64,000 bases of DNA from Halioglobus sp. (lineage in GTDB: Bacteria; Pseudomonadota; Gammaproteobacteria; Pseudomonadales; Halieaceae): contig JAGRIE010000003.1 of the NCBI GenBank assembly GCA_020443425.1, positions 77,131 to 141,130 on the forward strand. Direction: 5' to 3'. The notes under the pieces were generated by a model. That model saw nothing but the letters and a program-made list of their open reading frames with translations. It was not told the DNA's origin and searched no databases. A program made the translations under genes and the position numbers. Below are positions 51,338 through 59,905 of the stretch, one piece after another; the first letter of the stretch is position 1, and every line of letters starts with the position of its first letter.

Positions 51338-52420
51338 ATGGGTTCCCAGTTTGAAGGTCGTTCACACCGCCTGGTGTTGCTGGCATTCCTCGCGCTGTCG
51401 CTGTTCGCAAGTTACTGGCTGATAGCGCCCTTTCTCGAGCCCATCATTCTCGCCATCCTGATCGGCCTGCTGGCCTACCCGGCGCACGAGCGACTCGTCT
51501 CCCTCCTGCGTGGGCGCAAAACGGCCGCCTCCCTGCTCAGTTGCCTGATACTGTCGCTGATCGTCCTGATACCGATGATGGTGTTGCTGGTGGCTGTGCT
51601 GAAACAGGGAATCGACTACTCGGTGGTGCTGAAGGAGTGGGCGACACAGGAGAATGTGCATCAGTTGATGTCGCAGCCCTGGGTGGTTGAAGTCCACTCG
51701 CGCCTGACGCGGGTGCTCCCCGACGGCGCCCTGCACGTCGATAATATTCGCGAGAAGGCACTGGCCGCCGCCGGTACGGTGGGGCGACAGTTCGCCGGTA
51801 TCTCGACCGCGATCCTCGGCAGTCTTACGCGCTCGGTGATGAACGGGATACTGCTGTTGTTCGTGCTGTTTTTCGTGCTGCGCGATCACGACAAACTGAT
51901 CGCGTTCATTCACCGCGCGCTGCCGCTGTCACGCAGCGAGGAGGAGACCCTGTTTGCCGAGGTGAAGACAGTGAGTAAATCGGCATTGCTGGGGACCCTG
52001 GCCACCGCCGCTACGCAGGGGGTGGTGGGAGGATTTGGCTTGTGGCTGGCCGGTTTCCCGGGTGTTTTCTGGGGCGCTGTGATGGCGTTCAGCTCGCTGA
52101 TCCCGCTGGTGGGGACGGCCCTGATCTGGGTGCCGGCGGCGCTGTACCTGTTGCTGACAGGCGACTGGGGCTGGGGCGTTTTCTTGATTGCGTGGGGTGT
52201 GGTCGTGGTCGGATCGGTCGACAACTTCCTCAGGCCGCTGTTGATGCAGGGCGCCAGCATGAATACGGTGGTGGTGTTCTTCGCGCTGATCGGTGGCCTG
52301 CAGGTGTTCGGGCTGATCGGGCTGATCTACGGCCCGCTGATTTTCTCGCTGACGCTGGTCATGTTCCGGCTCTACGAGAACGCGTTTACTGAGTTTCTCG
52401 ACTCCCAGGACGGACGCTAG
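51338..52420 (+). CDS. AI-2E family transporter (PerM/YdiK type)
   Basis: The protein has 360 aa and about eight membrane helices. LLAFLALSLFASYWLIAPFLEPIILAILIGLLAYP is the typical N-terminal pair. The soluble loop (about 95-160) is followed by FSSLIPLVGTALIWVPAALYLL and the conserved VDNFLRPLLMQG and QVFGLIGLIYGPLI. A perfect AAGGAGG eight bases upstream fixes the ATG at 51338. Family members include a sodium/proton exchanger and putative signal exporters; no substrate is inferred. It overlaps the convergent ligase gene by four bases. Confidence 0.88.
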   Translation: MGSQFEGRSHRLVLLAFLALSLFASYWLIAPFLEPIILAILIGLLAYPAHERLVSLLRGRKTAASLLSCLILSLIVLIPMMVLLVAVLKQGIDYSVVLKEWATQENVHQLMSQPWVVEVHSRLTRVLPDGALHVDNIREKALAAAGTVGRQFAGISTAILGSLTRSVMNGILLLFVLFFVLRDHDKLIAFIHRALPLSRSEEETLFAEVKTVSKSALLGTLATAATQGVVGGFGLWLAGFPGVFWGAVMAFSSLIPLVGTALIWVPAALYLLLTGDWGWGVFLIAWGVVVVGSVDNFLRPLLMQGASMNTVVVFFALIGGLQVFGLIGLIYGPLIFSLTLVMFRLYENAFTEFLDSQDGR

Positions 52421-53928
52421 GCATACTGCTGCCGCAGCAGCGGTTTGTCGACCTTGCCCGCGGCATTCAGCGGCAGTGCGTCGACGCGGTGCCATCGTTT
52501 CGGTGTTTTATACCCGGCCAGCAGGCTGCGGCAGTGGGTTTGGAGCGCCTCGTCGCTGACCGCGGCGCGCAATCGCAACACGGCGCATGCGGCCTCTCCC
52601 CACCGTGGGTCTGCGACCCCGATCACGGCGCAATCTGCGACCGCGGGATGGGCGCGCAGCACCTCCTCCACTTCCCGCGAGGCGATGTTCTCGCCGCCGC
52701 TGATGATCATGTCTTTCTTGCGGTCGACAATGAACAGGTAGCCGGCCTCGTCAAAGCGGCCGATATCCCCGGTGCGCAGCCAGCCGTCCTCTAGCGCGCG
52801 AGCCGTGGCGTCCTCATCGCGCCAGTAACCGCGCATGGTCTGTTCGGCCTGCACCAGGATCTCCCCGGCCTCGCCGACGGCGCAGGGCTTGCCGGCGTCA
52901 TCGACCAACGCGATACGCGCGGTGGGCAGTGGACGGCCGACCGAGCGCAGCAGGTCGGGGTCGCCGTGCGCTGCGCGTCGGTGGTCCTCCACAGTCAGGA
53001 AGGCGACGCTGCCGGACAGTTCGGTCATACCGTAGCTCTGGCACAGCCCGACCTGCGTCTCCGACAGCAAGCGCTGTAACAGTGTCTGCGGCATTGCCGA
53101 GGCACCGTAGCCGATGGTGCGCACCGAGGCGAGGTCATCGGCGCGGAATTCCGGATGCTCAAAGAGCAGGCCGATCATGGTCGGTGCCAGCGACATGCTG
53201 GTGACCTCCAGCTCGCGGCAGGCTCGCAGTGTCTGGCCGGCGTCAAATGAGCGCGACAGCACCACCGCCGCCCCGTACAGGTGCTGTAGCAGCACATTGT
53301 GTGCGGCGACATGGAACAGCGGGAATGGGTAGTAGTAGCGATCGCTGCGCTCAACCGGCCGCGCCAGTGCCGCGGAGCGCAGGCCCGCCATGAAAGACCG
53401 GTGCGTCAGCACCGCGCCTTTCGGGCGCCCGGTTGAACCCGAGGTGAACAGTATCCACGCCGCATCTTCCGGTCCGCTCACCGGCAGTGGCGCCGTGGCC
53501 GACCCTGCGCGCCACTGCGTGTAACTGTCATCCATGGCGACAACGGCCAGCGTATCCGGAAAGTCTGGGTGTGCCTGCAGCGGCGCCAGCAGCTCGCGAT
53601 CGGCAAACAACACCGAAGCGCCTGCATTGTGCAACTGGTAAACCAGCTCGGCCGGCGCCAGTCGGGCGTTCAACGGCACCAGAATCCTGCCTGCGGCGGG
53701 TGTCGCGTAAATCAGTTCGATGAACTCGGGGCAGTTCCACGACAGCACCGCGACGCGATCGCCGGCGCTGCCGACAGCGGCCAGGCGCCGCGCCAGCGCC
53801 TCGCTGTTGCGGTGCAGGGCGTCGTAGGTGATGGCCGCGCCGCGCCACCAGAGCGCGGTGCCGCCGGGCTGTGCAGTCGCCTGCTGCGCCAGTATCTGGT
53901 GCAGTTGCGTGCAGCCCTCGTCAGCCAC
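52417..53928 (-). CDS. AMP-dependent acyl-CoA ligase, last gene of the D-amino acid operon
   Basis: The protein has 503 aa of the ANL superfamily. The AMP-binding loop is WILFTSGSTGRPKGAVLTH; later motifs are QSYGMTELSG, GWLRTGDIGRFDEAGYLFIVDRKKDMI and the C-terminal lysine region LPLNAAGKVDK. The GTG start at 53928 overlaps the alr stop by eight bases, which suggests coupled translation; the longer frame to 54081 lies inside alr. The acid substrate is unknown. Its place at the end of a D-Ala/D-Glu operon is unexpected and may be casual. Confidence 0.82.
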   Translation of the reverse strand: MADEGCTQLHQILAQQATAQPGGTALWWRGAAITYDALHRNSEALARRLAAVGSAGDRVAVLSWNCPEFIELIYATPAAGRILVPLNARLAPAELVYQLHNAGASVLFADRELLAPLQAHPDFPDTLAVVAMDDSYTQWRAGSATAPLPVSGPEDAAWILFTSGSTGRPKGAVLTHRSFMAGLRSAALARPVERSDRYYYPFPLFHVAAHNVLLQHLYGAAVVLSRSFDAGQTLRACRELEVTSMSLAPTMIGLLFEHPEFRADDLASVRTIGYGASAMPQTLLQRLLSETQVGLCQSYGMTELSGSVAFLTVEDHRRAAHGDPDLLRSVGRPLPTARIALVDDAGKPCAVGEAGEILVQAEQTMRGYWRDEDATARALEDGWLRTGDIGRFDEAGYLFIVDRKKDMIISGGENIASREVEEVLRAHPAVADCAVIGVADPRWGEAACAVLRLRAAVSDEALQTHCRSLLAGYKTPKRWHRVDALPLNAAGKVDKPLLRQQYA

Positions 53929-55000
53929 GAATGACCACCCGGCGGGTCCGCGCCGGCATGCGCGTGGTGAGTTCATAGCCGATGGTGTCGGCGCACAGTG
54001 CAATCTCTGACAGCGGCAGTCCCTCGCCCCACAGCACGACTTCGGAGCCGGCTTCGACGCCGCTGAGGTCGGTGACATCAACGGTGATCATATCCATCGA
54101 TACGCGGCCCGCCAGTGCGGCGCGCTGCCCGTTGACCAGCACCGGCGTGCCGTTAGCTGCATGCCGTGGGTAGCCGTCACCGTAACCGATGGTGACGGTG
54201 GCGATGCGGGAGGGCCGCTGTGTCACCCAGGTGCCGCCATAGCCCACCGCCTCACCCGTGGCCACATCGCGCAGCGATATCACGGCCGAGGTGAGCGTCA
54301 TCACCGGTTGCAGCTCCAGTGCATTCTCGTGATCCTGCAACATGGGCGAGTTGCCGTACAGCATATAGCCGGGTCGCACCCAATCGTAGTGTGCCTGTGG
54401 CCACGCCAGCAACCCGGCCGAGTTGGCGGCGCAGCGCAGTGCCGGGAAGGGCAGGGCATCAAATACCGCCAGCTGTCGCTGCGTCTGCAGGCTCAGCAGA
54501 TCATCGGCGGAGGCCAGGTGTGTGTAGGTGACGATGTCGTCGCGGACGTTGGGTGTCGCCAACAGGCGCCGGTAGTAATCCGGCGCCATGGCCGGCTTTG
54601 CGCCCATACGATTCATGCCGGTATCGACCTTCAGCCAACAGCTGATGGGCGCCGGCACTGTCGCCGTTTCCAGCCAGTGCAGCTGGCGCTCGTTTTCGAC
54701 GGTGAGCCACAGGTCCAGCTCGGCGACCTGTTGTAACTCCTGTGACTCGAAGGCGCCCTCCAGCAGCAGAATCGGCAGTGAGATGCCGGCAGCCCGCAGT
54801 TCCACGGCCTCCTCGATGCAGGCCACCGCCAGCGCGTCGACGGCTGGCTGCAGTGCTGTGGCGATGGTGACCGCGCCGTGGCCATAGGCGTTGGCCTTGA
54901 CCACCGCCATGATTTTCGATGCCGGGGCCAGTCGGCGGGCGACGTTCACATTGTGTCGCAGCGCGCCGAGGTCGAGTCTCGCCTGGTTGGGCCTGGCCAT
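53921..55000 (-). CDS. alr: Alanine racemase
   Basis: The protein has 359 aa, a fold-type III PLP enzyme. ARPNQARLDLGALRHNV opens the protein, and MAVVKANAYGHG carries the Schiff-base lysine. CRVSMDM-like AGRVSMDMITVDVT and the second catalytic tyrosine region VGYGGTW are present. It interconverts L- and D-alanine. Start overlaps the preceding aminotransferase stop by one base. Within this operon it can feed or drain the D-alanine used by the D-amino acid aminotransferase. Confidence 0.93.
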   Translation of the reverse strand: MARPNQARLDLGALRHNVNVARRLAPASKIMAVVKANAYGHGAVTIATALQPAVDALAVACIEEAVELRAAGISLPILLLEGAFESQELQQVAELDLWLTVENERQLHWLETATVPAPISCWLKVDTGMNRMGAKPAMAPDYYRRLLATPNVRDDIVTYTHLASADDLLSLQTQRQLAVFDALPFPALRCAANSAGLLAWPQAHYDWVRPGYMLYGNSPMLQDHENALELQPVMTLTSAVISLRDVATGEAVGYGGTWVTQRPSRIATVTIGYGDGYPRHAANGTPVLVNGQRAALAGRVSMDMITVDVTDLSGVEAGSEVVLWGEGLPLSEIALCADTIGYELTTRMPARTRRVVIRG

Positions 55001-55857
55001 CAGAAGTCGAATTTGTGGGCGCAGTACAGGGTTTGCGCGGCCAGCCAGATATCGCCGATGGTCCCATTGGCCACCGGTCGGTCATCGATTTCGATCACCG
55101 GCACGATGTCCTTGCTGGAACTGGACAGCCAGACCTCGTCTGCCGCGAGCAGTTCGTCCAGGGTGACAATCCGCTCCTCGACCGGGATGCTGCCGTCATT
55201 GCGCAGGATCGCCAGCAGCATGTGGCGGGTGATGCCGGGCAGTTTCTGTGCGTCCAGCAGCGGCGTCGCCACCACGCCATTCTTGACCACAAATACATTG
55301 CAGGCGGCGGCCTCGGTGATCTCCGCGCGGCTGTTGTACAGGATCGTCTCGTCCTTGCCGGCGGCGTGACCCTGTTGGTAGTGCATCACATTGCCCAGCA
55401 GCGAGGTCGATTTGATATTGCAGCGATGCCAGCGCAGATCTTCGGCAGTGCCCACGGAAAACGGTTTCACCGCGCTCTTGTCGGCCACGGGGGCCGGCGG
55501 TATTTCATAGGCAAAGGCAAACACGGTCGGCGAGACGCCGTCTGGGTAGGCGTGGTTCCGGCTGGTGTCGGCGCCGCGGCTGACGTGCAGGTAGAGGCCG
55601 AGATTGCCGCCGCCGTTGCGGGTGATCAGTTGCGCGGCGATCTCGCGCCACTGCACCGGGTCCAGTTGCAGCGGTATCTCCAGCGCATCCAGGCCGTTCT
55701 GCATGCGTGTCAGGTGCGGTGTAAAACCCACCAGCCTGCCGTCGTAGGACGGTATGACTTCGTAGATGCCATCGCCAAACAAAAAGCCGCGATCCATCGG
55801 CGAGATGTGCGCCTCGCTCATTGGTAGGTAGTTGCCGTTCAGATAAACCGTGCTCAT
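55000..55857 (-). CDS. dat: D-amino acid aminotransferase
   Basis: The protein has 285 aa, fold-type IV. Typical opening VYLNGNYLPMSEAHISPMDRGFLFGDGIYEVI is followed by the lysine in RCNIKSTSLLGNVMHYQ and by EITEAAACNVFVVKNG. The members of this family transfer the amino group between D-alanine and 2-oxoglutarate, giving pyruvate and D-glutamate. A branched-chain or 4-amino-4-deoxychorismate role is less likely given alr next door. Overlaps DUF4392 by four bases and alr by one. Confidence 0.87.
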   Translation of the reverse strand: MSTVYLNGNYLPMSEAHISPMDRGFLFGDGIYEVIPSYDGRLVGFTPHLTRMQNGLDALEIPLQLDPVQWREIAAQLITRNGGGNLGLYLHVSRGADTSRNHAYPDGVSPTVFAFAYEIPPAPVADKSAVKPFSVGTAEDLRWHRCNIKSTSLLGNVMHYQQGHAAGKDETILYNSRAEITEAAACNVFVVKNGVVATPLLDAQKLPGITRHMLLAILRNDGSIPVEERIVTLDELLAADEVWLSSSSKDIVPVIEIDDRPVANGTIGDIWLAAQTLYCAHKFDF

Positions 55858-56747
55858 GGTAGGGTCCCGTTGTTGCCTCGCTGCCTGTCACTGTGCGACG
55901 GTGGCAGCGCGGTAGAAAATTGTGTCAGCTGGCGCAGCTGTGCAATCACATCCCGCCCCTCCTGCACCTGCAGGCCGTCTTCGGTGGGCGTATTCGCACC
56001 GGTGACACCGTCGACGCCCCCGCGCTGGCACAGATAGTCCAGCGCCGCTGCCGGCGCTATGTCCGCCAGCAGGTCACGCTGTGCCCACAGCGCCAGCAGT
56101 GCGATCAGCCCGTAGGCGCCCCAGTTGGAAATATCCGCCAGCAACAGCTCGTCACAGCGGGTGACCGAGGCCCGGATATCCAGCTCGCGGTGTACCTCGC
56201 TGATATTGCCCATGCCGATTTCATTGCCGCCGTCACCGATGGCGAGGGTAGGGCAGGCGGCCTGGCCGATGAATGGGTCGAACAGGGTGCAGCGGGCCGA
56301 GATGTCGTCACCGCGCATATTATAGTAGCGGCCGTCAGCTGCAAGCCCCGGACACTCGATTGCCACTATCGCTCGCGGTTGCAGGCGTGCCAGGTGGCTG
56401 TCGGCCTCGGCCTGCGCGTCGGCAAGGTTGCGGGCGGTGAGTGGAAGCACGCAAAAGTCCGCATCCAGGACCTGCGCCAGTTGCTCGCCACAGGCAATCA
56501 CCGGGCGCGCGCCCAGCGCGTCCAGCGCCTGGTATAGCGCCATCGCGCCCACCGGGCCGTCGGTTTCAAATGTGCCGGCCACGGGAAAGCCGGTGCCGAT
56601 AATCACCGTGCCATCGATGCGGTGCAGGTGGCGCGCGGCCCGCAGGTAGTAGCCGGGTCGCAATGCGCGGCGGGCGATCGCCATATTCCGCAGATTGCGC
56701 GCCACCAGCAGTGCCTCGATCGCCCGGCCGAGCTGTGACTCGTTCAC
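55854..56747 (-). CDS. DUF4392 protein, D-glutamate cyclase-like (C-terminal half of DGLUCY)
   Basis: The protein has 297 aa, soluble. Diagnostic stretches are TVIIGTGFPVAGTFETDGPVGA, RGDDISARCTLFDPF and LAIGDGGNEIGMGNI, with the C-terminal GGVDGVTG. This is the DUF4392 family, also the C-terminal domain of vertebrate DGLUCY, which turns D-glutamate into 5-oxo-D-proline. I infer D-glutamate or a related cyclisation as the reaction. The GTG start overlaps the pxpC stop (GTGA), and the end overlaps dat. The free-standing form may need its DUF1445 partner at the start of the operon. Confidence 0.83.
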   Translation of the reverse strand: MNESQLGRAIEALLVARNLRNMAIARRALRPGYYLRAARHLHRIDGTVIIGTGFPVAGTFETDGPVGAMALYQALDALGARPVIACGEQLAQVLDADFCVLPLTARNLADAQAEADSHLARLQPRAIVAIECPGLAADGRYYNMRGDDISARCTLFDPFIGQAACPTLAIGDGGNEIGMGNISEVHRELDIRASVTRCDELLLADISNWGAYGLIALLALWAQRDLLADIAPAAALDYLCQRGGVDGVTGANTPTEDGLQVQEGRDVIAQLRQLTQFSTALPPSHSDRQRGNNGTLP

Positions 56748-57676
56748 GGTCGGCGCTCCTGCAGGGTTCGCTGCAGTGAGAAGCGCTGTGCCAGCGCCAG
56801 TGCGCGCTGCGCGGTCCGCGGTGTAACCGCGGCGAAATGCACGCTGCTGCCGGGTGCCAGCTGGCTGAGCCGCGCCGTATCCAGAGACAGCGCAGTGCCG
56901 ATTTTGGGGTAGCCGCCGATGGTCTGGCGATCGTTCAGCAATACAATGGGCTGGCCATCGGGTGGAACCTGGATGGCGCCGTGGCAGATGCCCTCGGACA
57001 GAATACCCTCGATATCGCACTCTACGCGCGGCCCCTCCAGCCGGTAGCCCATGCGGTCGCTGCGCTCGGAAACGCGGAAAGTGCCGCCGAAGAAGCGGCG
57101 CTGCGCAAGCCGGGAAAAGTGTTGTTGCTGGTAGCCCGGGATTACCCGCACGGTGAGGGTGTGCTGGTAGCGCGGCCTGTCGCGTGCGGCCAGGAACAGG
57201 CGTTTACGCCCGGTCACGCGGGCACACGGCAGCACGTCACCCGCCTGCAGGCCCTCGCCGCGCAGGCCGCCGATGCGTTCGCGCACAACGGTGGCAGTAC
57301 TGCCGAAGCAGGGGGCGATGTCGAAGCCCTGGGCTACACCGAGGTAGGCGCGGCAACCGGCGCGGGCGAAGCCGAGACGGACAATATCGCCGCCGGAGAC
57401 GGGGTGTACCTCCCACAGGGGCCGGTTCTCCCCGTTGATGGTGAGCGGCATGTCAGCACCCGTGACGCAGATAGATGTCTCTGTGCTTGCAAGGATTTGC
57501 AAGCCACCGACGCTCACCTCAATGGCTGTACTGCCAGCCGGGTTTTGCAGCAGCCGGTTGCAGTAGTGGAACGCCTCGCTGTCCAGTGGACCCCCGGTGG
57601 TGAGGCCGAGGCGGTGCTGTCCCCGCCGCCCGCTGTCCTGCAGCAGGCTGAGCATGCCCGGCTGTAATACGGTCAT
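56744..57676 (-). CDS. pxpC: 5-oxoprolinase subunit PxpC (biotin-dependent carboxyltransferase-like, KipA)
   Basis: The protein has 310 aa. MTVLQPGMLSLLQDSGRRGQHRLGLTTGGPLD is the classic KipA/urea-carboxylase central opening; VGLAQG-like LGVAQGFD, SERSDRMGYRLEGP and EGICHGAIQVPPDGQPIVLLNDRQTIGGYPKIG complete it. With PxpA and PxpB it forms the ATP-dependent 5-oxoprolinase that opens pyroglutamate to glutamate. The ATG at 57676 follows the pxpB stop by two bases. Confidence 0.9.
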   Translation of the reverse strand: MTVLQPGMLSLLQDSGRRGQHRLGLTTGGPLDSEAFHYCNRLLQNPAGSTAIEVSVGGLQILASTETSICVTGADMPLTINGENRPLWEVHPVSGGDIVRLGFARAGCRAYLGVAQGFDIAPCFGSTATVVRERIGGLRGEGLQAGDVLPCARVTGRKRLFLAARDRPRYQHTLTVRVIPGYQQQHFSRLAQRRFFGGTFRVSERSDRMGYRLEGPRVECDIEGILSEGICHGAIQVPPDGQPIVLLNDRQTIGGYPKIGTALSLDTARLSQLAPGSSVHFAAVTPRTAQRALALAQRFSLQRTLQERRP

Positions 57677-57678
57677 GC

Positions 57679-58365
57679 TCACGGCAGCGTCCCGCCCAGC
57701 GCCAGGAAGTCGGCGCGGCCAATGGCCTCGAAACGCACCAGGTCGCCGACGGCCACGGGCATCGCGGGCTGGTGTTCCGGGGTAAACATCGGCACGGGGC
57801 AGCACCCGATCAGGTTCCAGCCCCCCGGTGACGGCGACGGGTAGACAGCGGTTTGTCGATCCGCGATGGCGACAGAGCCCTGCGGTACGCGGGCGCGGGG
57901 GCTAGGCAGGCGCGGCGCGGCAATGCGTGCGTCGACCTCGCCGAGATAGGCGAAACCGGGTGCAAACCCGATGGCGTACACCCGGTACTCGGTGGCGGTG
58001 TGCAGCGCGATGACCTCTTCCACAGACAACTGCGCCCGCGCGGCCAGCGCCTCGAGATCAGCGCCGCTTTCACTCGCGTAATACACTGGCAGCACCACCG
58101 TTCGCCCACCTGCCAGCGGCTGTGCCTGCAGGGTTGCAAGGCATGCCCGCACCCGGCGCGCAATGCTGCTGTGGTCGCTGCGCAGGGGGTCGTACAGGAT
58201 CAGCACTGAGGCGTAGGAGGGCACCAGGTCAACCAGCTCCGCGCCCAGTGCCTGTTCGATGGCGTCAGTCGCCGCCTGCACCCGCGCCAGTGTCACGGCG
58301 TCCGCGCTGTCGCCGAGGTAGAGCATCAAGGCGTTCTCGCCCACTACCCGCAGTGTTGTCGTCAT
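57679..58365 (-). CDS. pxpB: 5-oxoprolinase subunit PxpB (KipI-like)
   Basis: The protein has 228 aa. Family elements are VPSYASVLILYDP, VLPVYYASESGADLEALA and the strongly conserved YAIGFAPGFAYLGEVD with PRLPSPRARVPQGSVAIADRQTAVYPSPSPGGWNLIG. It is the small allophanate-hydrolase-like subunit, partner of PxpC. The gene begins directly at the pxpA stop with no gap. Alternative naming as a sporulation kinase inhibitor is irrelevant here. Confidence 0.92.
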   Translation of the reverse strand: MTTTLRVVGENALMLYLGDSADAVTLARVQAATDAIEQALGAELVDLVPSYASVLILYDPLRSDHSSIARRVRACLATLQAQPLAGGRTVVLPVYYASESGADLEALAARAQLSVEEVIALHTATEYRVYAIGFAPGFAYLGEVDARIAAPRLPSPRARVPQGSVAIADRQTAVYPSPSPGGWNLIGCCPVPMFTPEHQPAMPVAVGDLVRFEAIGRADFLALGGTLP

Positions 58366-59106
58366 TCAACCGGCCTTTGCCAGCGCGCGAATATCAGCGA
58401 TTGCCGCCACGCCCTCCGGGTTGTCACCGTGCACACACAGGGTGTCAAACTGCAGTGCCAGGACCCTGCCGCTGTGGGTGGTGACAGTGCTGCTTGCGCA
58501 CAGCTGCGCCACCTGGGCCAGCATGGGTTCGCGTTCATGCACCGCGCCCGGCTGGCTGCGCGGCAGCAGGCTGCCGTCGTCCGTGTAACAGCGGTCGGCA
58601 AACGCCTCCAGCAGCAGGGGTACCCCGGCTGCACGCGCTTGTGCGCGCAGGGCGTCGGCGGCTGTGGTGGCCTGCATCACCAGCGCCAGCGGCTCGCCCC
58701 CGGCAGCGTAACTCGCTGTCGCCTGCAGCAGCGCATCGCGCACCTCGGGTTTATGCATCATGTCGTGGTAGAGGGCGCCGTGAGGCTTGATATAGGTGAG
58801 CGTCAGTCCCGCAGCGCGCGCCATACCGTCCAGTGCGGCGACCTGGTAATGCAGGTTGGCGATGAGTTCATCGCGGCTCAGGCTCATGCTGCGGCGGCCG
58901 AACCCGACCAGGTCCGGGTAGGCGGGATGGGCGCCCACCGCCACCTGGTGCTCTGCCGCCAGCGCCAGCGTGCGCTGCATGGTCAGCGGGTCGCCGGCGT
59001 GGAAACCGCAGGCGATACTGGCCTGGTCGATAAACGGCATCACGCGCGCGTCGAGGCCCATGGTCCAGCTGCCATAGCTCTCGCCGAGGTCGCAATTGAG
59101 TAGCAT
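58366..59106 (-). CDS. pxpA: 5-oxoprolinase subunit PxpA (LamB/YcsF family)
   Basis: The protein has 246 aa. LLNCDLGESYGSW is the family opening, followed by SIACGFHAGDP, GAHPAYPDLVGFGRRSM, and YIKPHGALYHDM; the C-terminal DTLCVHGDNPEGV is also typical. PxpA supplies the catalytic site for 5-oxoproline ring opening together with PxpB/C. I start at the ATG at 59106, where homology begins; the longer frame is out of family. It follows DUF1445 by 16 bp. Confidence 0.93.
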   Translation of the reverse strand: MLLNCDLGESYGSWTMGLDARVMPFIDQASIACGFHAGDPLTMQRTLALAAEHQVAVGAHPAYPDLVGFGRRSMSLSRDELIANLHYQVAALDGMARAAGLTLTYIKPHGALYHDMMHKPEVRDALLQATASYAAGGEPLALVMQATTAADALRAQARAAGVPLLLEAFADRCYTDDGSLLPRSQPGAVHEREPMLAQVAQLCASSTVTTHSGRVLALQFDTLCVHGDNPEGVAAIADIRALAKAG

Positions 59107-59122
59107 CTCGCCAGTCCTCCGG

Positions 59123-59905
59123 TTACAACACAGCCAACTGGCTGTTGCGAAGATCGGTGACCAGCATACACCCCGGGCTGTGTGTGATGGCAAGTGGCAA
59201 GCGGGCAGCCTGCAGGGCCAGCTGCGGCGTCACACCGCAGGCCCAGAACAGCGGCAGCTCGCCATCCTCGATGCGCACAGGCTCGCCGTAGTCCGGTTGC
59301 GACAGATCCGCGATGCCGATCAGCGCCGGTTCGCCGAGGTGGACGGGCGCGCCGTGAACGGCGGGGAATCGCGAGCATATCTGGATTGCGCGTATCGCAT
59401 CGGCGGCGCAATAGGGCCGCATACTGACCACCATCTTCGCCGTGAAAGGGCCGCTGGCAGTGCAGTCGAGGTTGCTGCGGTACATCGGTACATTGCGCCC
59501 CTGGGAGATATTGCGCACCTCCAGGCCATCCGCCAACAGTGCCTCCTCAAAGGAGAACGAGCAGCCGAGGGCGAATGTCACCAGGTCGTCGCGCCACAGC
59601 GCGCTGATGTCGGGGACTTCCCCGGTCAGTTCGCCGTCGCGGAACACGCGATACGCGGGAACATCCGTGCGGATATCGAGGTCTCCCAGGGCCGGCAGTG
59701 TCGGGTCGCCCGCGTCGCCCACGGCGATCAGCGGGCAGGGCTTGGGGTTCAACTGGCAAAATCGCAGGAAATCGTGCGCGTGGCTGGCGGGAAGTATCAC
59801 GATATTGCACTGCACATAGCCCGGAGCCGAGCCCGAGGTGTTGCCTATATGCTCGCCAGCCCGTATCTTGCGTCGCAATTCGCCCGGGGACAGTGTGCTG
59901 GTCAT
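59123..59905 (-). CDS. DUF1445 / UPF0317 putative hydro-lyase (N-terminal half of DGLUCY)
   Basis: The protein has 260 aa, soluble. Family stretches are [49 protein letters not shown], and [13 protein letters not shown] near the end. Bacterial members (YcsI) are annotated as putative hydro-lyases; the same domain is the N-terminal half of vertebrate D-glutamate cyclase DGLUCY. It is the first gene of the operon, while the other DGLUCY half, DUF4392, is the fifth. I infer the two proteins work together on D-glutamate or 5-oxoproline. Start ATG at 59905; the 121-bp gap to tesB should hold the operon promoter. Confidence 0.87.

Follow-up and report, generated by a model that had tools for sequence, protein, structure and literature searches.

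The two domains of vertebrate D-glutamate cyclase (DGLUCY, also GLUCM), DUF1445 and DUF4392, have both been solved as folds, and in bacteria the Bacillus subtilis operon ycsF-ycsG-ycsI-kipI-kipA-kipR, a pxp operon that includes the Mn importer MntG, combines ycsI with the 5-oxoprolinase genes (PMC10448178). The enzyme families, the vertebrate fusion (PMC5132392) and this B. subtilis operon with ycsI are already known. Here we analysed a stretch of 64,000 nucleotides of Halioglobus sp. (GCA_020443425.1, contig JAGRIE010000003.1, forward-strand positions 77,131-141,130), referred to as the window, in which the two domains are encoded separately within the seven-gene cluster DUF1445-pxpABC-DUF4392-dat-alr (59905-53921, minus strand), together with 5-oxoprolinase, a D-amino acid transaminase (Dat) and an alanine racemase (Alr). 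On balance, we lean towards the view that in Halieaceae this operon manages the D-glutamate (D-Glu) pool of cells without the glutamate racemase MurI, where Alr and Dat would provide the supply, and DUF4392, DUF1445 and PxpABC the return. B. subtilis differs from this arrangement in that its genome gave no DUF4392 match (PF14336 was found in none of 14 control genomes). We take ycsI to be the DUF1445 gene that PF07286 detects in B. subtilis, and the gene order of its pxp operon presumably includes neither dat nor alr. The preliminary description of the window regarded DUF1445 and DUF4392 as the separated halves of the vertebrate cyclase; this is supported by the fusion described in PMC5132392 and PMC5339696, and the metal ligands reported as invariant in the family (PMC5132392) are kept here.

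Between 59905 and 52417, eight genes follow one another on the minus strand in the order DUF1445, pxpA, pxpB, pxpC, DUF4392, dat, alr and a gene for an AMP-forming acyl-CoA ligase, and domain and profile scores confirmed the families to which they had been assigned (Table 1). The source genome (G000; 4.3 Mb, 94% complete) carries the stretch on contig C156. A gap of 16 bases separates DUF1445 from pxpA, pxpA and pxpB abut directly, and pxpB and pxpC are 2 bases apart when the ATG start of pxpC is taken. Further downstream the genes overlap, by 4 bases at both pxpC/DUF4392 and DUF4392/dat, by 1 base at dat/alr, and by 8 bases at alr/ligase with the ligase GTG start at 53928; the overlaps of 1, 4 and 8 bases noted earlier were thus verified from the sequence. 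The program-listed starts of the open reading frames were partly too long, and the starts chosen were GTG 56747 for DUF4392, 57676 for pxpC and 59106 for pxpA. Promoter and terminator scans were uninformative, and profile searches of the PDB added no relatives with a meaningful score to those named below.

Conservation of the cluster was determined in 36 Halieaceae genomes (G000-G035). Many of the genomes surveyed in this study are metagenome-assembled genomes (MAGs), so that single absences carry little weight. DUF4392 was detected in 34 of the 36 and, among the 21 genomes that represent other families of the order, in 3; the two Halieaceae genomes lacking it are only 74% and 88% complete. 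DUF4392, dat and alr were consecutive in all 34 DUF4392-bearing genomes, while all seven genes were found in order in 29 of them; contig ends cut the cluster in four, and DUF1445 was located elsewhere in one (G022). The seven-gene arrangement is not due to chance, and the co-occurrence of both DUF genes with pxpABC and dat that had been anticipated for related genomes was indeed observed. The ligase gene, on the other hand, was located 3′ of alr at 16 of 17 loci of the window's own genus (the 17th stops at a contig end) and at none of the 17 loci from the rest of the family, where one locus ends just past alr. Since this linkage is confined to the genus, the conserved unit consists of seven genes. 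The operon of eight genes proposed in the preliminary description therefore holds as one tight, conserved unit, but with the ligase as a genus-level addition. A part for the acyl-CoA ligase in the pathway was rejected, and the gene probably stands outside it.

The strongest indication of what the cluster does in Halieaceae came from the genes for making D-amino acids. MurI (TIGR00067) scored over its cut-off in none of the 36 Halieaceae genomes, in searches that did not include DapF-type or broad-spectrum racemases, as compared to 15 of the 21 that represent the other families. Weak TIGR00067 matches in open frames of 233-237 residues were seen in three of the 36, and G000 gave no match; in the 14 control genomes, the same model found matches in 10, which exceeded the cut-off in 8. 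Alr was over its cut-off (TIGR00492) in 35 of the 36 genomes, and in 33 the operon copy was the sole alr to reach it; among the remaining cases, in G021 a contig end leaves only part of the gene, and G035 has an additional partial copy. The Dat profile matched the operon gene at E <1e-140 in 34 of the 36. A MurL search with the MurL-like protein of locus L111, a query whose own score (434.7) is below the cut-off of 700, gave no match in any of 57 genomes, without a positive-control genome. With no MurI found and the operon alr nearly always the only one, Alr and Dat must also be biosynthetic, and their genes in Halieaceae are best read as encoding the predicted source of D-alanine (D-Ala) and D-Glu for the wall. 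The earlier proposal of a dedicated route for wall-derived D-amino acids is, accordingly, the less likely reading in this family.

The type of Dat encoded in the window is in keeping with such a role. Its best solved relatives are the D-amino acid aminotransferases (DAATs) 4pbc, 4m0j, 9pxs, 3daa and 1daa, and F27, Y32, V34, P36, Y89, R100-x-H102 and K149 were invariant or nearly so in 115 aligned rows. By motif matching, the protein shows the canonical DAAT motif (F26, Y31, [VA]33, [KRPT]35, xYxQ and RxH; table in PMC10003956) with one departure, xYxH for xYxQ. It scored below the NCBIfam cut-offs of its top two models, TIGR01121 (202.2 versus 277.45) and NF005209 (230.7 versus 320). K149 was matched to what we take to be the catalytic lysine of canonical D-amino acid transaminases. 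The reaction expected of this enzyme is D-Ala + 2-oxoglutarate = pyruvate + D-Glu.

The relation of Dat to MurI was also determined across the order, with one genome for each of 21 families outside Halieaceae and a Dat threshold of E <=1e-60 that was set post hoc, the best hits having left the range 8e-69 to 5e-37 empty. Dat was present in all six MurI-less genomes (G037, G038, G044, G045, G049 and G051), whereas only two of 15 MurI-bearing genomes (G036 and G041) contained it (Fisher p 5e-4); when only genomes of >=90% completeness were counted, the figures were 5/5 and 2/14 (p 0.0018). Dat thus seems to replace MurI across the order, and DUF4392 to be an addition in some such cells. In the operon-less genomes G049 and G051, Dat adjoins a dacA-like carboxypeptidase gene near a lipB-like gene, which is a wall context; the dacA-like gene of G051 is represented by its C-terminal part only, at a contig end. 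Four gammaproteobacteria (L202:2102-5025, L203:2306-5368, L204:1906-5018 and L201:1086-4324) have this second type of Dat flanked by a dacA-like and a lipB-like gene, and the two of these genomes just named lack both MurI and the operon.

If the operon indeed serves both supply and return, Alr would convert L-Ala to D-Ala, and Dat would transfer the amino group of D-Ala to 2-oxoglutarate, yielding D-Glu; in Halieaceae, peptidoglycan synthesis would apparently depend on these two enzymes alone for both D-amino acids. Cells without MurI would have no direct path from D-Glu to L-Glu. Surplus or recycled D-Glu would be converted to 5-oxo-D-proline by the Mn-dependent DUF4392 protein, DUF1445 would act on 5-oxoproline, possibly inverting it, and PxpABC would open the L-lactam to L-Glu at the expense of ATP, the use of which would make the return one-way. 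The chemistry of Alr and Dat is established for their families and presumed to hold here; all reactions of DUF4392 and DUF1445, the D-to-L inversion and the direction of flow are predicted. The pathway from D-Ala through D-Glu and 5-oxoproline to glutamate that was suggested in the preliminary description retains its order of steps, which fits the gene fusion described below, but its purpose in Halieaceae would be wall supply and not simply salvage.

For DUF4392, the evidence concerns its metal site and its partners. All six acidic metal ligands of the archaeal DUF4392 protein TON_0340 (E59, D61, E115, D157, E161 and D246) are kept in the window protein as E61, D63, E131, D172, E176 and D257, and no change at these positions was seen in 13 diverse rows with identities as low as 28%, nor in 119 rows that include near-copies. 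Furthermore, PxpC and DUF4392 are fused in single open frames at L184:7020-8825 (a Porticoccaceae MAG) and L190:7032-8813 (a Cellvibrionales MAG), each of which holds nearly whole PxpC and nearly whole DUF4392 domains. On a DUF4392 tree of 66 rows, which is a quick gene tree with several long branches and not a species tree, L184 and L190 are sisters, so that one fusion event was seen twice. Both the operon and the fusion are compatible with a DUF4392 protein that would make 5-oxoproline and a PxpABC that would subsequently open it.

In DUF1445, residues C57, C115, C223, H184 and H242 were constant wherever a row has a letter at that position (104 rows including near-copies), and the same five were constant in nine rows down to 42% identity. 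When aligned, the solved DUF1445 relatives 3db9 and 2pif share these cysteines. Its gene company and conserved cysteines make DUF1445 a candidate for the inverting enzyme. A more specific and decidedly tentative version of this idea is a "pyroglutamate shunt", a new glutamate-inverting cycle driven by ATP, in which DUF4392 would cyclise D-Glu to 5-oxo-D-proline, DUF1445 would be a cofactor-free, cysteine-based 5-oxoproline epimerase with its three invariant cysteines as candidate acid/base residues, and PxpABC would open 5-oxo-L-proline to L-Glu; in marine Gammaproteobacteria the cycle would have arisen alongside Dat and, with it, have taken the place of MurI in both directions.

The three subunits of PxpABC are all present and adjacent, and PxpA (NF003816), PxpB (TIGR00370) and PxpC (TIGR00724) each scored over the cut-off, while the PxpC equivalog model NF045499 remained below it (208.2 versus 500). 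Elsewhere, DUF1445 accompanies pxp genes in G048 and is at most 6.5 kb away from them in G054, two genomes without a DUF4392 match, and it was found with pxp genes on plasmids of Lactiplantibacillus, Klebsiella, Paracoccus and Azospirillum, with no DUF4392 within the stretch shown. Exceptions are an Agrobacterium plasmid, where DUF1445 lies by a dihydropyrimidinase gene, and pRM41A. These occurrences with pxp genes and without DUF4392, in several groups, count in favour of supply and return, and they are also what one would expect if Alr and Dat made D-Ala and D-Glu, PxpABC and DUF1445 only repaired the 5-oxoproline that forms spontaneously from glutamate or glutamine, and DUF4392 were a phosphatase, or acted on some other substrate, and were kept for regulation. 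The report of TON_0340 as a weak Mn-dependent phosphatase (PMC5132392) points the same way, as do distant DUF4392 genes in unrelated clusters. DUF4392 proteins of about 30% identity are encoded on rhizobial and Salipiger/marine plasmids (L197:5776-9355, L198:4867-7421, L200:5144-7029 and L196:7878-9963) among genes for Thr/Ser dehydratase, RidA, "selenocysteine synthase", an amino-acid ABC transporter or arylmalonate decarboxylase. We nevertheless consider such a division into supply and damage repair unlikely, in view of the D-Glu cyclase activity of the vertebrate DUF1445-DUF4392 protein (PMC5339696), the PxpC-DUF4392 fusion and the fact that DUF4392 was twice found beside or near a MurL-like gene. 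In these two cases, a distant DUF4392 gene adjoins a MurL-like gene in G112 (L111:9517-11941) and lies near MurD and MurL-like genes in G162 (L112:9757-14717). The MurL-like proteins score 434.7 and 267.1, respectively, below the cut-off of 700, and no MurI match was found in either genome. MurL being itself a MurI-free route to D-Glu, both cases also favour supply and return, and it is possible that this distant DUF4392 would be the enzyme for D-Glu disposal in MurL-using cells.

A scan of named genomes for DUF4392 showed that the cluster is widespread in marine Gammaproteobacteria, often without alr; the neighbourhoods examined were those of the best 80 loci by likeness to the window protein, and are biased to close relatives. 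Among these 80 loci, dat was in the cluster in 74 (on the opposite strand in two), DUF1445 in 65 and alr in 38, of which 35 have it at the 3′ end and the other three upstream of DUF1445. The two positions suggest that alr was recruited at least twice. The search for MurI covered 50 of the 80 loci. Twenty were omitted as taken for Halieaceae or near (L115-L132, L144 and L157), and ten more (L134, L138, L147, L149, L150, L164, L177, L181, L188 and L192) for reasons of contig ends, near-duplication, earlier testing or keeping to n=50. MurI was over the cut-off in 14 of these 50 further carriers versus 176 of 249 genomes in a sample of the phylum (p 3e-8; the two samples differ in make-up). The presence of alr in the operon was rejected as a mark of MurI loss, as it was seen in 13 of the 36 MurI-less and 4 of the 14 MurI-bearing carriers. 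On the DUF4392 gene tree, the MurI state changes at least nine times, with four of the changes forced by well-supported branches, and it is consequently not one inherited event there.

The spread of the cluster bears on two further explanations. The first, which is the view of the preliminary description, is that the operon breaks down D-amino acids released from walls, whether of the cell itself or of others, with Dat gathering their nitrogen in D-Glu, which the cyclase halves together with PxpABC would hand back as L-Glu. This would suit the alr-less operon variants that occur together with MurI in G179, G287 and the Pseudoalteromonas loci L161 and L183. It would also suit the NagZ-like GH3 gene that comes first in L114, L161, L164, L183 and L195 (G179 and four Pseudoalteromonas loci), although the NagZ-like model NF003740 scored 202.7 bits in G179 and 190.6 in CF6-2, below the cut-off of 207, and the MurR/RpiR-type regulator, likewise below the cut-off of the named model, beside the operon in L113/G287. 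In addition, a gene of a LysR cluster (two members scanned) is located between DUF4392 and dat in 15 of the best 80 loci, four of which also have a gene of an Lrp/AsnC cluster (one member scanned). In Halieaceae, however, the operon holds the sole alr in nearly all genomes and MurI was not found, and 36 of the 50 other carriers were also without MurI over the cut-off. As a general explanation, salvage is therefore doubtful. A wall-recycling role is plausible for the NagZ-headed operons of the four Pseudoalteromonas loci and G179 and for the MurR/RpiR-associated operon of G287; salvage is a better fit for some Alteromonadales, G179 and G287, with MurI present, alr not in the operon and a NagZ-like or MurR/RpiR neighbour, than for Halieaceae. 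The NagZ-headed operons were counted in favour of D-Glu supply and return as well.

The second explanation reverses the flow, such that the cyclase halves and PxpABC would make D-Glu from 5-oxoproline as a substitute for MurI. The cluster is associated with a lack of MurI, as this would require, but a Dat homologue was present in all 50 further carriers (E <=2e-58), albeit only of a distant kind in four, and the MurI-less, cluster-less G049 and G051 have Dat beside a dacA-like gene and would not need such a source. Reverse flow to D-Glu was rejected on account of the Dat homologue in all carriers, and we regard it as highly improbable.

Several observations weigh against the view that the operon supplies and returns D-Glu in MurI-less cells. 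In Pseudoalteromonas sp. CF6-2, no pxpBC genes adjoin the operon, and its D-Glu catabolism is reportedly assigned to DgcN/DgcA. MurI is kept by the 14 carriers mentioned above and by three of the seven DUF4392 genomes of the phylum sample. In four carriers (G305, G307, G328 and G332), the best Dat is only of the more distant kind (E 1e-64 to 2e-58). At the family level, DUF4392 was found in two of six MurI-less and one of 15 MurI-bearing genomes, which is not significant (p 0.18), and the idea that DUF4392 by itself tracks MurI loss was rejected; G037 (75% complete), G045, G049 and G051 have Dat and lack both MurI and DUF4392. The alphaproteobacterial plasmid contexts of distant DUF4392 genes imply a family broader than D-Glu, and the phosphatase report for TON_0340 also counts here. 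With respect to the chemistry, DGLUCY yields 5-oxo-D-proline (PMC5339696) and the pxp genes are described for 5-oxo-L-proline (PMC13274462), so that an inversion by a still putative enzyme is called for. No report of D-Glu cyclase activity of a bacterial DUF1445 or DUF4392 protein was found among the matches listed. Moreover, Dat and Alr alone could return the nitrogen of D-Glu to the L pool, in which case the drain would not be strictly needed, and other makers of D-Glu are possible, such as broad-spectrum racemases or a DapF like that of Chlamydia, for which glutamate racemase activity is described (PMC5885031).

Some further gene neighbourhoods were noted. In two phyla, plasmids carry NRAMP metal-transporter genes beside pxpA and DUF1445 (L199:4001-6771, L207:1319-4090 and L210:2934-5762), which hints at a metal need of the pathway beyond DUF4392. 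At L161, L164, L183, L195 and L056, pxpA lies beside DUF4392 and dat with no pxpB or pxpC there, and in G038 pxpB and pxpC are on another contig; judging from such operons without local pxpB/pxpC, PxpA may also act independently. G019 contains a divergent second copy of DUF4392 beside an MFS transporter gene (L068:9376-11749).

Table 1. Genes of the cluster and the adjoining ligase gene, in window coordinates, with the scores that support their assignment.
Feature	Position	Strand	Evidence
DUF1445 ("putative hydro-lyase"; homologue of the DGLUCY N-terminal half; likely 5-oxoproline-side enzyme)	59123..59905	-	PF07286 215.8 bits; NF003969 401.2 (cut-off 324)
pxpA, 5-oxoprolinase subunit A	58366..59106	-	PF03746 288.6 bits; NF003816 321.8 (cut-off 213); solved relative 2xu2
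pxpB, 5-oxoprolinase subunit B	57679..58365	-	PF02682 236.5 bits; TIGR00370 160.6 (cut-off 145.55)
pxpC, 5-oxoprolinase subunit C	56744..57676	-	PF02626 281.7 bits; TIGR00724 256.6 (cut-off 230.2)
DUF4392 (GLUCM-like_C), candidate Mn-dependent D-glutamate cyclase, GTG start	55854..56747	-	PF14336 212.7 bits
dat, fold-IV D-amino acid transaminase, canonical type	55000..55857	-	Aminotran_4/PF01063 167.2 bits
alr, alanine racemase	53921..55000	-	TIGR00492 362.9 bits (cut-off 168); single match over cut-off in G000
acyl-CoA/AMP-forming ligase	52417..53928	-	PF00501 271.6 bits; NF004837 464, below cut-off 476

If the operon does manage the D-Glu pool in this way, peptidoglycan synthesis in the absence of glutamate racemase, a drug-target enzyme, would be accounted for in a large family of marine bacteria. 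The gene company would separate the likely roles of the two cyclase halves, with DUF1445 mostly next to 5-oxoprolinase genes and DUF4392 here next to Dat or a MurL-like gene, and it suggests a reason for the presence of DUF1445 in many pxp operons. Among the matches listed from open-access papers, no title or beginning of an abstract mentioned DUF1445 or DUF4392 with dat or alr in bacteria, and none described the full coupling or its link to MurI loss, which are apparently new.

The combination of Alr and Dat as a source of D-Glu is the route of Bacillus and Staphylococcus; in contrast to that route, MurI was not found here and the genes are coupled to the cyclase halves and 5-oxoprolinase. 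MurL/MurD2 of Xanthomonas likewise brings D-Glu into the wall without MurI, though it is not known to make free D-Glu, and a distant DUF4392 gene lies beside a MurL-like gene at L111 and near one at L112. Halieaceae differ in that no MurL match was obtained, in a search without a positive control. DgcN/DgcA runs through N-acetyl-Glu, whereas the route proposed here would run via 5-oxoproline. In marine bacteria, that system is described as an irreversible and energetically costly conversion of D-Glu to L-Glu (dgcN, PMC12363236), and the present operon would be another such. As compared with DGLUCY, finally, two domains that form one polypeptide in vertebrates are encoded here by separate genes that share an operon with those for PxpABC, Dat and Alr, and their cyclase activity is putative. 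Humans excrete 5-oxo-D-proline, which as far as reported is not returned as glutamate (PMC5339696), while the Halieaceae operon would represent a bacterial pathway for both halves of the vertebrate enzyme, each of them testable alone.

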